In this document: piece by piece, positions 55,428 to 61,026 of the stretch | Numbering within the stretch: position 1 is the stretch's first letter | Layout of the letters: every line of letters starts with the position of its first letter | Assembly: GCF_021535045.1 (NCBI RefSeq) | Contig: NZ_CP091056.1 | Span: 186,001-250,000 of the forward strand | Origin: Ornithinimicrobium sp. INDO-MA30-4 | GTDB taxonomy: Bacteria; Actinomycetota; Actinomycetes; Actinomycetales; Dermatophilaceae | DNA: 64,000 nt | Reading direction: 5' to 3' | Notes under the pieces: generated by a model | Told to the model about the DNA's origin: nothing | The model's input: the letters and a program-made list of their open reading frames with translations, nothing else | The model's database searches: none | Translations under genes and position numbers: made by a program

Positions 55428-55441
55428 GCACGAAAAGGTGC
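55428..55441 (+). promoter_or_regulatory. Candidate LysR operator dyad
   Basis: GCAC-N6-GTGC lies in the intergenic space between lysR (start 55416) and the demethylase gene (start 55489). Two TGCAAA direct repeats flank the dyad. The assignment rests on position only. Confidence 0.3.
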
Positions 55442-55488
55442 AAATGCGTGAGATTATCTTTTACTTTCATGGCCTGGACACTGAAGCT

Positions 55489-57529
55489 ATGGCCGCACTT
55501 TCCGACCCGCTTCTCCAGCCGTTTGACCTCGGCCCGCTCACCCTGCGCAACCGCATCGTGAGCACCTCGCACGAACCGGCATACACCGTGGACGGTATGC
55601 CCAAGGATCGGTATCGGCTCTACCACCGGGAGAAGGCTCGAGGTGGGGTTGGTCTGACCATGATCGGCGGGTCAGCAGTGGTGGCTCCCGATAGTCCTCC
55701 AGCTTTTGGCAACATCTTGCTCTACAAGGACGAAGTGGTCCCATGGCTCCGGCGACTAGCTGACGATGTTCATGAGGCTGGCGCAGCCGTCACCTGCCAG
55801 ATCACCCACCTTGGTCGACGAACCAGCAACTTCAGCGCAGACTGGCTGCCCGTTGTCTTCCCCTCGCCGCTGCGCGAACCCGCCCACCGTTCGTTCCCTA
55901 AACAGGCCGAGGTGTGGGATATCGATCGAATCGTGGCGCAATACGCCGAAGCGGCACAGCGTTGCCAGGCTGGCGGGCTCGACGGCATCGAGGTGGACTC
56001 GTATGGCCACCTCTTCGACGGCTTCTTATCTCCGGCCACCAACCAGCGTGATGACGAGTTCGGTGGTGACCCGCAAGCGCGCCTGGAGTTTCCGTTGCGG
56101 GTGATCCGGGCGATCCGCGCTGCGGTCGATCCCGGCTTTCTGATCGGTCTGCGGATGAGTATGCAAGAAGACACCGACCCAGGGCTTGAGCGTGAAGACA
56201 CCCTGCTGGCGCTCAAACACCTCACCGGGGCTGGCGTCGACTTCTTGTCAGTCATCAAAGGCACTATCGACCGCGACGCACGACTGGCCGAAGTTATCCC
56301 TTCCATGGGCACGCCGTCCGCACCGGCGCTCGACTTCGCTGGCCAGATAAAGCGAGCCGTCGGCATTCCGGTGATGCATGCTGGGCGCATCGGCGACGTC
56401 GCCACAGCGCGGTATGCGGTGCGTGAAGGTTTGCTGGACCTGGTGGGTTTAACCCGGGCGCAACTAGCCGACCCCTACCTGGTCGCCAAGGTGGCACGAG
56501 GGGAAGAAGATCGAATCCGGCCTTGTGTGGGTGCCAACTATTGCCTCGATGCGATTTATGAGTCAGGCGATGCCAAGTGCATCCACAATCCAGCAACGGG
56601 ACGGGAGCAAAGCTTGCCGCACCTGGTCAAGCCGAGTGAGGCACAGTCCAAGCGGGTTGTGATTGTCGGGGCTGGGCCAGCGGGGTTAGAGGCCGGGCGA
56701 GTGCTGGGCGAACGTGGACACCGAGTCACCATCCTGGAAGCTAGCGACAGTGCTGGTGGGCAGGTGCTGCTTGCCGCGAGAGCACCCCGTCGTCGGGATC
56801 TCATCGGGATCGTTGACTGGCGGGTCAGTGAGTGTCGACTGCTCGGCGTTGAATTGCGCCTTGGCATCTATGCCGATGCCGACTCAGTCCGGGCGATGTC
56901 CCCGGACGTGGTGATCATTGCCTCCGGGGGACTCCCAACACTAGTTTTTTGCAGACTGGGGCCAATCTGGTGCACGACACCTGGGACGTGATGGACGGCA
57001 CGGTGCATCCCAAAGGGCGGGTCTTGATTTATGACGACAACGGCAATGAGAGCGCCATGGGTGCGGCCGAATTGCTGGCGCCCCAGGCCACTGTTGAGTT
57101 GATAACTCCGGAGCGCATGCTGGCACCGGGTGTCGGCAGCATGAATAGCCCGGCCTATCTCACTGCCTTTGCTGAGCATTCTGTGCGCACCACCTTGGCG
57201 ACCCGACTCGTCGGCGTGACCCGAGGGGAGGGCAAGCGCCTGGTCGCCCACCTGGGCAGCGACTACACGATCAAGACGTGGGATCGAGAGGTTGACACTG
57301 TCGTGGTCGAGCACGGCACGCTGCCCAACGACGAGTTGTATTTCGAGTTGGTCGCTGACTCCGTCAACCTCGGCGAGGTCAATCAAAGCGCTCTCCTCGC
57401 TGGTGACCCCCAGAGCATCCGCGCCAATGACGCGGGAAGTTCCAGTTGTTCCGGATTGGTGATGCGGTCGCGAGCCGCAATATCCACGCCGCGATCTACG
57501 ACGCCCTTCGCCTTTGCATGGCGATCTAG
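55489..57529 (+). CDS. DgcA/StcD-type FMN/FAD demethylase, old-yellow-enzyme family (frameshifted)
   Basis: A protein of about 680 residues. The N-terminal OYE barrel (residues about 10-340) contains RNRIVSTSHEPAYTVDGMP, TCQITHLGRR and HAGRIGDVATARYAV. A Cys cluster (CVGANYCLDAIYESGDAKC) for an Fe-S centre follows, then an FAD/NAD domain starting KRVVIVGAGPAGLEAGRVLG. This matches enzymes that demethylate dimethylglycine (DgcA) or stachydrine (StcD). Bases are missing near 56945 and 57437. The end is DALRLCMAI, with stop TAG 57527-57529 lying in the IS481 target CTAG. Start ATG 55489 is chosen by homology. Exact substrate is unknown. Confidence 0.83.
57526..57529 (+). repeat. Left CTAG target-site duplication of the IS481-like element
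   Basis: CTAG directly before the left end. Bases 57527-57529 are the stop codon of the demethylase gene. Confidence 0.85.
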
Positions 57530-57556
57530 CTGTTCTTCCCCGGCAGGTTGTGAACG
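57530..57556 (+). repeat. Left terminal inverted repeat (IRL)
   Basis: Begins CTGTTCTTCCCCG and ends GGTTGTGAACG; the reverse complement of the right repeat differs only in three central bases (GCA versus TGA). Confidence 0.92.
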
Positions 57557-57625
57557 TCTGAGATAGCGAAGACCTCCGTGCAGGATGTGGGTTACCACAC
57601 TCACTGTCCAAACACGGAGGTCTTC

Positions 57626-58585
57626 GTGACTCACGCTAACGCTCCTTGACGCCGGAAGGGCGTCGTCGTCTCGCGGTCCTGATCGTTGATCGGGGTTGGT
57701 CCCTTCGTCGGGCCGCGGAACGGTTTCAGTGTTCACCGGCGACGGCGAAACGGTGGGCCGACCGCTATCGGGTCGGGGCATCCTTGGTCGATCGCAGCTC
57801 CCGACCCCGGACGTCGCCCTCGCGTCTCCCGCAGCGCGTCGAACGGCGAATCGTCGGATTGCGGGTCAACCGCCGGTGGGGACCGCACCGGATCGCGTTT
57901 CATCTCCGGCTGCATCGATCAACTGTCGGACGGGTCCTCGCCCGCTTTCGGATGCCGTTGCTGACCCATATCGATCAGTCGAGCGGTGTCCGGGTGCGGA
58001 GGGCGAAGCCGATCCGTTACGAGCTCGCTGAGCCGGGTCAGCTCGTGCACGTGGATATCAAGAAGCAGGGCCGCATCCCCGACGGGGCGGGCATCGCATG
58101 TTGGGGCGGCAAGCCGGGAACCGCAACAACAAGAAGAAGGGACGCGGCTACGCGTTCCTCCACCACGCCGTCGACGACCACTCCCGGCTGGCCTATTCGG
58201 AGATCCTCGACGACGAACGCAAAGAGACCGCCTCCGCGTTCTGGGAACGCGCCAACGCGTTCTTCAAGCCGCGGGGATCACGGTGACGGCCGTGATGACC
58301 GACAACGGCTCCTGCTACCGCTCCCGCGACTTCGCTGCTGCGCTCGGCACGATCAAACACCGATGGACTCGGCCCTACCGGCCCCAGACCAACGGCAAAG
58401 TCGAACGCTTCAACCGCACCCTCGCTGCCGAGTGGGCCTACGCCGCCTCATACGCGAGCGACGAAGACCGAGCAGCGACCTACCAAGACTGGATCCATCA
58501 CTACAATCACCACAGACCCCACACCGGCATCGACGGCCAAACACCCTCAGACCGCGTTCACAACCTCACGGGGAAGAACAGCTAG
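57626..58585 (+). CDS. IS481-family DDE transposase (frameshifted)
   Basis: A protein of about 321 residues. The N-terminal HTH is LRRAAERFQCSPATAKRWAD. The catalytic core shows D in LVHVDIKKQGRI, D in VMTDNGSCYRSRD and E in NGKVERFNRTL, followed by HHRPHTGIDGQTPSDRV. Bases are missing near 57647, 58105 and 58265. The last codon (AGC) and stop TAG use the right CTAG duplication, outside the element. GTG 57626 follows ACGGAGG. Confidence 0.9.
58555..58581 (+). repeat. Right terminal inverted repeat (IRR)
   Basis: Reads CGTTCACAACC then three unmatched bases then CGGGGAAGAACAG; the complement of IRL apart from those three bases. Confidence 0.92.
58582..58585 (+). repeat. Right CTAG target-site duplication
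   Basis: CTAG directly after the right end; supplies the TAG stop of the transposase. Confidence 0.85.
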
Positions 58586-58608
58586 CGACCACCGATGAGG
58601 AGGAAACC

Positions 58609-59898
58609 ATGACCATCCAGACCCAGAGCGCAGATCAAACCCGTAGGCAACTCGCGGGCGAATCTGTGGCCGCCATGGCCAGGAATTGGTCTCCGGGAGG
58701 ACCCCTCGTGGGCGATTTCTACACCAGCAATCAGGTTTTCGACCATGACCTTGAGGTGATTTTCGGGCGGCACTGGTTCTTCGCCACCACCGAGGCGCAT
58801 GTGCGCGGAGGCAGGCGACTACATCACGCTCGATTTTGGGCCAATCTCGCTTCTGGTGCTGCGTGACGATGACGAGCAGGTGCAAGCGTTCCACAACGTC
58901 TGCCGTCATCGAGGGGCCAAGATCTTGACGGATGAGCAGGGTGTTGTCGGCAACTTGGTCTGTGGCTACCACTACTGGACCTACAGCACTGGGGGAAGTT
59001 GCTGCACGCCCCGGGCGCAGAGGACGACTTTGATCCGGCCTGCTTTGCCCTCAAAAACGTTGCAGTCAAAGTCGTGGGCGGGCTCATCTATCTCTGCCTT
59101 GCTAGCGACCCGCCCACAGACATCAACAGCATGGCCGAGCGAATTGAGCCCTACCTCCAAGGCCATCAACTAGCCCGCACCATAGTGGCAGCCCAACAGG
59201 ACATCATCGAGACCGGCAACTGGAAACTCGTGATGGAAAACAACCGTGAGTGCTACCACTGCGAAGGACACCCGGAGTTATCGAGCACCTTTTTTCTGAC
59301 TTATGGTCTTGCTGACGACGAGGTGCCGACCCGGCTCCGCCCGGCGCACGATCGCTACCTCTTGGCTGAGAGCGAGCTCGAGTTGGCCTGTAGCCAACGA
59401 GGTCTGCGCTTTGAACGCATCGAAGAACTCGTGGAGCCTGCGACCGCTTTTCGCATTCAGCGAGAAGCCCTCGATGGGGTCGGAGAGTCCTTCAGCTTGA
59501 ACGGCAGGCTGCTGTGCCAACGCCTGATGGGAGACCTGGACATGCCGCGTCTTGGGCGGCTTTCGATGCACCTGCAACCGAACGCTTGGTTCCACTTCAT
59601 GTCTGATCACGCCGTGACGTTTGCGGTGTTCCCGCTTGGTCCTGATCGCACGCTGGTGCGCACCACCTGGCTGGTCCATGAGGAGGCCGTCGAAGGTGTC
59701 GACTACGACATCGACACCTTGACCTACGTCTGGCGAGAAACCAACGCTCAAGATTCTGAGTTTGTCGCTCGCGCCCAACGGGGTGTCTCCAGTCCTGCAT
59801 ACCAACCGGGGCCGTACATGCGCAGTGAATACCAAGTTGAGGCCTTCGTGCGGTGGTACCTACGCCGGCTTGAAGCCCATGACACGGGAGCAATCTGA
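58609..59898 (+). CDS. Rieske non-haem iron oxygenase, GbcA-like (frameshifted)
   Basis: A protein of about 431 residues. The Rieske cluster is CRHRGAKI...CGYHYWTY (Cys-X-His and Cys-X2-His). The mononuclear iron site is NWKLVMENNRECYHCEGHPE. This fits the alpha subunit of glycine betaine monooxygenase (GbcA) and related quaternary-amine demethylases such as stachydrine demethylase. A two-base loss in a GC repeat near 58803 and one base near 58995 break the frame. ATG 58609 follows GAGGAGGA. The stop overlaps the gbcB-like start. Substrate is not proven. Confidence 0.87.
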
Positions 59899-61026
59899 TG
59901 AGCGCGATCACCAATAGCCAACATGGAGCCATCAGCGTTGCGGCGGCCACCCCACAGTTGAGGTTGTTGCCCGGTGCCGAGGGCGCCTTCGACCAAGTGA
60001 TGCTGTGCAAGGCCGTGATTGCCCTCACGCCCGATGTCTCAACTTTTGTGCTCGAGCCGCTCACTCCGCAAAACTTCACCTTCGAACCGGGCCAGTATGT
60101 GGTGCTCACGGTCGAGATTGACGGTGAGCAGCACGAACGGTGCTACACGATCTCGTCACCGCCCACGCGGCCGCACTTGCTCACCATCACGGTCAAGCGA
60201 GTGCCGAACGGCGTCGTCTCCAATTGGCTGCACGACAGTTTCGGCGTGGGGCAACAAGCCTTGGTGCGAGGTCCACTGGGTGAGTTTTCCTGGTCAACTA
60301 TCCAGCCTTGAAGTATCTGTTCCTCTCGGCGGGGAGCGGTGTTACACCCATGCTCTCCATGACGAGGACGTTGGCGGACTTAGCTGAAGACTGCGATGTG
60401 GCCTTTGTGCATAGCGCGCGCAGTCCCGTGGACATCATTGCCGGAGCGAGTTGGCCACATTGGCCAACTCCGGGCTAGCGCTCGCCGTCACCAGCATCTG
60501 CGAGGCCGATAGCCCTGAAGAGTGCTGGGCTGGCCCACGCGGTCGGCTCACCGCGCTTCTTCTGGCAGCGTGTGTGCCGGATGTCGCCGCGCGGGAAGTC
60601 TTCATCTGCGGACCGCCGCCCTACATGAAAGCGGCACATGCCGTGCTCGCTGAGTTAGGTGTCGATCCAGGTCATGTACATCAGGAGAGCTTCACCCTGG
60701 ACGTTCCTGCGGTGCCGCTGACCGCTGTTCCTGATGGCCCAGCCGAGGTTGATCGGGAAGTCGGCACAGCCAGCCTGTATTTCCGGCGCAGCGGAATTGA
60801 CGTTGCCTGCCCACCTGGCACAACCGTCCTCGAAGCCGCAACGGCTGCCGGGGTTGTCATCCGCAGTTCGTGTGGGCAGGGGCTGTGCGGAACCTGCAAG
60901 AGCGATCTCGTCAGCGGGCAGGTCGATATGCAGCATGCTGGCGGCATTCGGCCCCGCGAAATCGCGGCGGGCAAGTTCTTGCCGTGCTGCTCCTATCCGA
61001 CTGGAGACCTGGTGGTTGACGCATAG
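59898..61026 (+). CDS. GbcB-like ferredoxin reductase (frameshifted)
   Basis: The electron donor of the Rieske oxygenase, of about 377 residues. The FAD domain has FTFEPGQYVVLTVE and ERCYTISSPP (RxYT/S), the NAD domain SAGSGVTPMLSM and FICGPPPYMKAA. The C-terminal plant-type [2Fe-2S] ferredoxin has SSCGQGLCGTCKSD and a fourth Cys in KFLPCCSYP. Bases are missing near 60292 and 60445. Its ATG overlaps the gbcA-like stop by one base. Confidence 0.9.

Follow-up and report, generated by a model that had tools for sequence, protein, structure and literature searches.

An IS481-family insertion at the stop of a demethylase-like gene of Ornithinimicrobium, and a survey of stop-codon insertions among related elements

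The insertion and its host junction

The window considered here is a stretch of 64,000 nucleotides from Ornithinimicrobium sp. INDO-MA30-4 (contig NZ_CP091056.1, positions 186,001 to 250,000 of the forward strand), in which an insertion sequence lies between two host genes read on the plus strand. The upstream gene (55438..57529) encodes an FMN/FAD oxidoreductase (Pfam Oxidored_FMN) whose C-terminus is the same as in a sister genome of the genus and in relatives; its TAG stop (57527-57529) is located within the left target repeat, TCTAGC (57525..57530). The position of this gene ahead of gbcA- and gbcB-like genes suggests that it encodes a demethylase. The element itself occupies 57531..58580 (plus strand, 1050 bp as assembled), as delimited by its inverted repeats, its target repeats, and its five copies in the genome, and belongs to the IS481 family, a common kind of insertion sequence. 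Alignment of the ends places the left inverted repeat at 57531..57556 (plus strand) and the right one at 58555..58580 (minus strand), the latter overlapping the 3' end of the transposase gene. Inverted ends in the IS481 family begin with TGT, and those of the window element (TGTTC...) are as expected; they are 26 bp long and match at 24 positions (25 of 27 if the adjoining C/G is counted), which corrects the 27-bp ends with 24 matches given in the initial annotation. The transposase gene (57646..58585, plus strand) has a TTG start and is frameshifted as assembled. Its stop, the TAG at 58583-58585, lies outside the element, as had been proposed, and within the right target repeat, GCTAGC (58581..58586), which differs from the left repeat at one position.

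Downstream of the element, a ribosome-binding-site-like GAGGAGG (58597..58603, plus strand), identical in the sister, precedes a gbcA-like Rieske oxygenase gene (58609..59898, plus strand; NCBIfam NF058607, Pfam Ring_hydroxyl_A), which is followed by a gbcB-like reductase gene (59898..61026, plus strand; NCBIfam NF058606) present as two open reading frames (ORFs) in the assembly. The 3' part of the gbcA-like gene scored 254 bits against NF058607 (GbcA), under the cutoff of 670, and NF058606 was the best match for each gbcB-like piece, both under the cutoff. Within 55438-61026 of the window, the oxidoreductase, gbcA-like, gbcB-like, and transposase genes are all broken by frameshifts. The upstream ORF of the sister is open throughout the 361 codons read, and the estimated completeness of the source genome is 74.86%; the frameshifts are likely assembly errors or sequencing indels. 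Because these genes, including that of the transposase, are frameshifted as assembled, gene function is unreadable from the window sequence.

In the sister genome, which is free of the insertion, the junction is uninterrupted at approx. 89.5% nucleotide identity (GCGATCTAGCGATCACC...ATG): the protein ends in ...ALRLCWAI, TAG lies in a TCTAGC hexamer identical to the left repeat, and 23 bases containing GAGGAGG lead to the ATG. In 12 of 14 gbcA-like loci of relatives, the upstream protein has its C-terminus at this same residue, with gbcA close behind (a script returned no match at the other two), and the stop codon of these 12 is TGA in 11 and TAG in the sister only. Since the IS-free sister has TAG at this place and the relatives share the end, the window TAG is the gene's own stop. 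Thus, two claims of the initial annotation, that the left CTAG holds the stop of the upstream gene and that the C-terminus of this gene is complete, with no continuation past the junction, are borne out, whereas the 24 bases it gave between TAG and the gbcA-like ATG are 23 by count. The window and the sister probably owe the CTAG word to a change in their shared lineage. There is next to no likelihood that the insertion truncated a longer gene, thereby creating the stop in the left repeat, and that the neat junction is coincidental: an insertion at CTAG always places a TAG in one frame, but truncation is excluded by the sister's TAG and by the relatives' shared end.

Almost certainly, an IS481-family element inserted recently on the stop of the demethylase-like gene, TCTAGC was duplicated, and both stops come from the repeats. 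The target, of the 6-bp form NCTAGN, would have spanned the TAG of a gene in a glycine-betaine breakdown operon; after duplication, the left copy retains the stop of the host gene, the right copy supplies the transposase stop that the element itself lacks, and the 23-base spacer between TAG and the following start, ribosome-binding site included, is unaltered. The host stop codon is kept because the element duplicates its landing site and, with the spacer unchanged, the transposase frame replaces the demethylase frame ahead of gbcA. The structure of the element, the empty site, the five copies, and the reading frame are direct observations; the host genes would still be functional after the insertion, and transcription of gbcA may be altered by it. 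A consensus scan of 57300-58800 found no promoter-like site; the two terminator-like sites it gave (0.8 expected) are on the minus strand, and folding at the transposase-gbcA junction is not unusual (z -1.23).

Copies of the element in the source genome

The source genome contains five full, near-identical copies of the element (the window copy, L001, and L002 to L005), the differences among which are limited to one-base indels, a single substitution-like position next to an indel, and the bases adjoining CTAG. CTAG is repeated on both sides of all five, so the duplication that the initial annotation expected at other copies is indeed present. The full NCTAGN repeat matches at 6/6 positions in four copies (GCTAGC on both sides of L002, L003, and L004; ACTAGA on both sides of L005) and at 5/6 in the window copy (TCTAGC/GCTAGC). 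Because L005 carries ACTAGA on each side, the target repeat is 6 bp long and a 4-bp CTAG repeat is ruled out; of the earlier description, the CTAG on each side of the element stands, and the repeat length does not. Since the five copies share matching ends and target repeats, chance is also ruled out. In each of the five, the transposase stop lies inside the right target repeat. The intact transposase, found in L003 and L004, has 313 residues from its TTG start and ends in ...HNLTGKNS, and one-base indels relative to these two copies disrupt the reading frame in the window copy. An intact copy scores 328.1 bits against NCBIfam NF033577 (IS481; cutoff 224), Pfam rve and rve_3 match the transposase, and a motif search gives D137, D220, and E254 as candidate DDE residues, with 33 residues separating the last two.

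Three of the five copies, the window copy included, occupy stop-codon positions. L004 is inserted precisely at the TAG ending a same-strand sulfatase-modifying-factor gene, whose Pfam domain reaches the last residue, and L002 at the TAG of an opposite-strand EamA transporter gene, where it also replaces the final three codons of a convergent helicase-like gene. L003 is located 23 bases downstream of the stop of a 337-codon ORF, and L005 splits a 288-codon ORF, the larger piece of which has a glycosyltransferase domain. One of the five copies thus probably breaks a gene, and the insertions are not all harmless, since L005 splits an ORF and L002 alters the end of the helicase-like gene. The element was not matched in the sister genome, and the presence of five near-identical copies, with none found in the sister, suggests, as far as sequence comparison goes, recent transposition activity. 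When one 1-kb flank of each of the other copies was searched in the sister, the empty site of L002 was present exactly (GGGTGCTAGCCC), the site of L003 was diverged, L004 gave short weak matches only, and L005 gave no match.

It is rather improbable that the TCTAGC/GCTAGC mismatch of the window copy arose by gene conversion from another copy or from a base brought from the donor. A single base differs, GCTAGC is found in three other copies, the sister points to T as the older base, which makes the odd G the one adjoining the element, and surveyed elements with 5/6 repeats likewise tend to differ at an outer base; however, both flanks are contiguous in the sister, so no flank exchange occurred, and the mismatch could also come from a point mutation or from an error in the assembly. 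Among the 16 one-base repeat differences, 14 fall at an outer base of NCTAGN and two in the core, a pattern that is also favoured by the CTAG bias of the end finder. The odd G in the window copy may have been carried from the donor, or the NCTAGN core may be kept by selection.

Stop codons at the target sites of related elements

The position of the transposase stop was surveyed at 165 loci (80 from named genome records, 80 from further genomes, and the five own copies), of which two without a C-terminal match and 16 with ends scoring below 17/26 were dropped. In 139 of the remaining 147 elements, the transposase stop begins exactly 2 bases past the element end, in the right repeat, and is TAG in 137 cases and TAA in two. 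The target repeat matches at 6/6 positions in 114 elements and at 5/6 in 16; four of the 6/6 repeats are not NCTAGN (GCTAAG, GCTAAC, CTTAGG, and GTTAGC), and in all four the transposase frame still closes at the usual position. The end finder gave CTAG a three-point advantage per side, so the share of CTAG is a biased estimate. The eight exceptions comprise two elements whose right flank has no stop word, so that the frame continues (L074 and L105), three with a stop much farther downstream (L091, L145, and L234), two that run off the contig (L152 and L277), and one whose end is probably misplaced (L113), for which another end finder gave an end with the expected stop. Three elements from different genera (L117, Mycobacterium sp.; L118, Tsukamurella spumae; L119, Gordonia polyisoprenivorans) have an identical 60-base left flank, which hints at a common mobile element or plasmid.

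For the survey of landing sites, elements with 5/6 or 6/6 repeats and CTAG on both sides were kept, and five with short flanks and seven duplicates were dropped, leaving 112 distinct insertions. A stop site was defined as an insertion exactly on the TAG that ends a coding-like ORF spanning 100 codons or more, as identified by a codon-based caller, and the other CTAG sites in the same flanks served as controls. Insertions on stop sites were in excess (38/112 vs. 43/356 controls; odds ratio 3.7, p 5e-7), also when duplicates were removed from the controls (38/112 vs. 43/337; odds ratio 3.5, p 2e-6) and when wider margins were used (39/112 vs. 44/317; odds ratio 3.3, p 5e-6). Three further settings gave 38, 32, and 41 of 112 insertions against 49, 33, and 56 of 317 controls, with odds ratios from 2.7 to 3.4, and a first, cruder caller gave 17/49 insertions against 42/221 controls. 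The share of stop sites among controls was 12-14% at the main settings; the caller may give some false calls, and the way the control sites were chosen could account for part of the excess. Across 400 kb of the sister genome, the main setting classed 48 of 611 CTAG sites as stop-type, and the other settings 23 to 63. CTAG is scarce in this stretch (G020:C1:1-400000, L053-L072), with 615 occurrences observed against approx. 1392 expected from base composition. The excess in this survey supports the earlier proposal that, through a preference for CTAG, stop codons become natural landing sites.

Evidence on the called ORFs comes from Pfam, for which 44 ORFs at insertion sites were tested (43 called ones and that at L004). 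A family match (E up to 1e-5) was found for 33 of these ORFs, covering 32 of 39 sites and leaving the other seven without Pfam support; the match at L241 is slightly under the curated cutoff. The caller missed the frameshifted window locus (L001) and L004, both true stop sites by other evidence. At five double sites (L096, L218, L219, L222, and L247), two convergent ORFs end in one CTAG, the palindrome having provided a stop on both strands before the insertion; three of the five have Pfam support on one side only, and L096 has it on neither. With respect to orientation, 23 of the 38 stop-site insertions are opposite to the host gene and 10 are along it, the other five being double stops. The p value for 23 vs. 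10 is 0.035; because it becomes 0.09 (23 vs. 12) once the missed same-strand cases L001 and L004 are added, no orientation bias is claimed. Insertions inside genes are depleted (7/112 vs. 58/337 controls; odds ratio 0.43 against other sites, p 0.04).

The simplest account of the excess, which needs no new mechanism, would be survival of harmless insertions: where the repeat restores the host stop, nothing would be lost, and the insertion would persist. It appears unlikely that the excess instead reflects a transposase preference for the surroundings of stop codons, such as transcription ends. In its favour, the excess persists when in-gene sites are excluded (odds ratio 3.1), and a weaker one is found against sites 1-100 bases past a stop (odds ratio 1.9-2.9, p 0.005-0.06, four settings); however, in-gene sites are also depleted, as survival predicts. 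On balance, it seems fairly probable that host TAG stops are a general safe harbour for CTAG-targeting IS481 elements, receiving approx. one-third of insertions at approx. three times the background, some of them at convergent double stops. If so, one repeat would both rebuild the host stop and lend the element the stop it is missing, by virtue of a shared 4-base palindrome with TAG on each strand. A transposase gene closed by its target would tie expression of the element to landing at a stop-like word, and such a word would let the element occupy gene ends at no protein cost. Target choice, survival, and element expression would thereby become testable jointly.

Comparison with known elements

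An element in Microbacterium timonense (L073, NZ_OLMV01000002.1) has 84% transposase identity and TCTAGC on both sides; its transposase stop lies in the right repeat, as in the window copy, and its insertion site is different. IS481 of Bordetella pertussis has the 6-bp target NCTAGN, credited to Stibitz 1998, and also uses CCTAAC; an outward promoter has been shown for bteA and cited for katA (PMC3053399), whereas the consensus scan of the window junction found none. ISLxc2 (1,105 bp) and ISLxx4 of Leifsonia xyli are likewise IS481-family elements whose transposase stop lies in the host NCTAGN site; unlike the account of ISRe46, the part of the Leifsonia account available makes no mention of kept host stop codons (PMC2516522).

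A matching arrangement is described for ISRe46/TnRErm46 of Rhodococcus equi, in which CTAG provides stops for both the transposase and the target gene parB (PMC6794481). It shares with the window element the IS481 family, NCTAGN repeats, and a right-repeat TAG that serves as the transposase stop; the left-repeat TAG is similarly the stop of some target genes, such as parB, which are left uninterrupted (PMC6794481). TnRErm46 (6.9 kb) differs in its cargo, which includes a resistance gene (PMC6794481), whereas the insertion in the window is that of a bare insertion sequence, within a betaine operon. A literature search, with most subscription journals outside its scope, recognised no published share of stop-codon insertions. 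The window insertion is itself ordinary, the same arrangement having already been published for ISRe46/TnRErm46; what is added here is counts, both for the transposase stop borne by the target (139/147) and for insertions at host stop sites (38-39/112).
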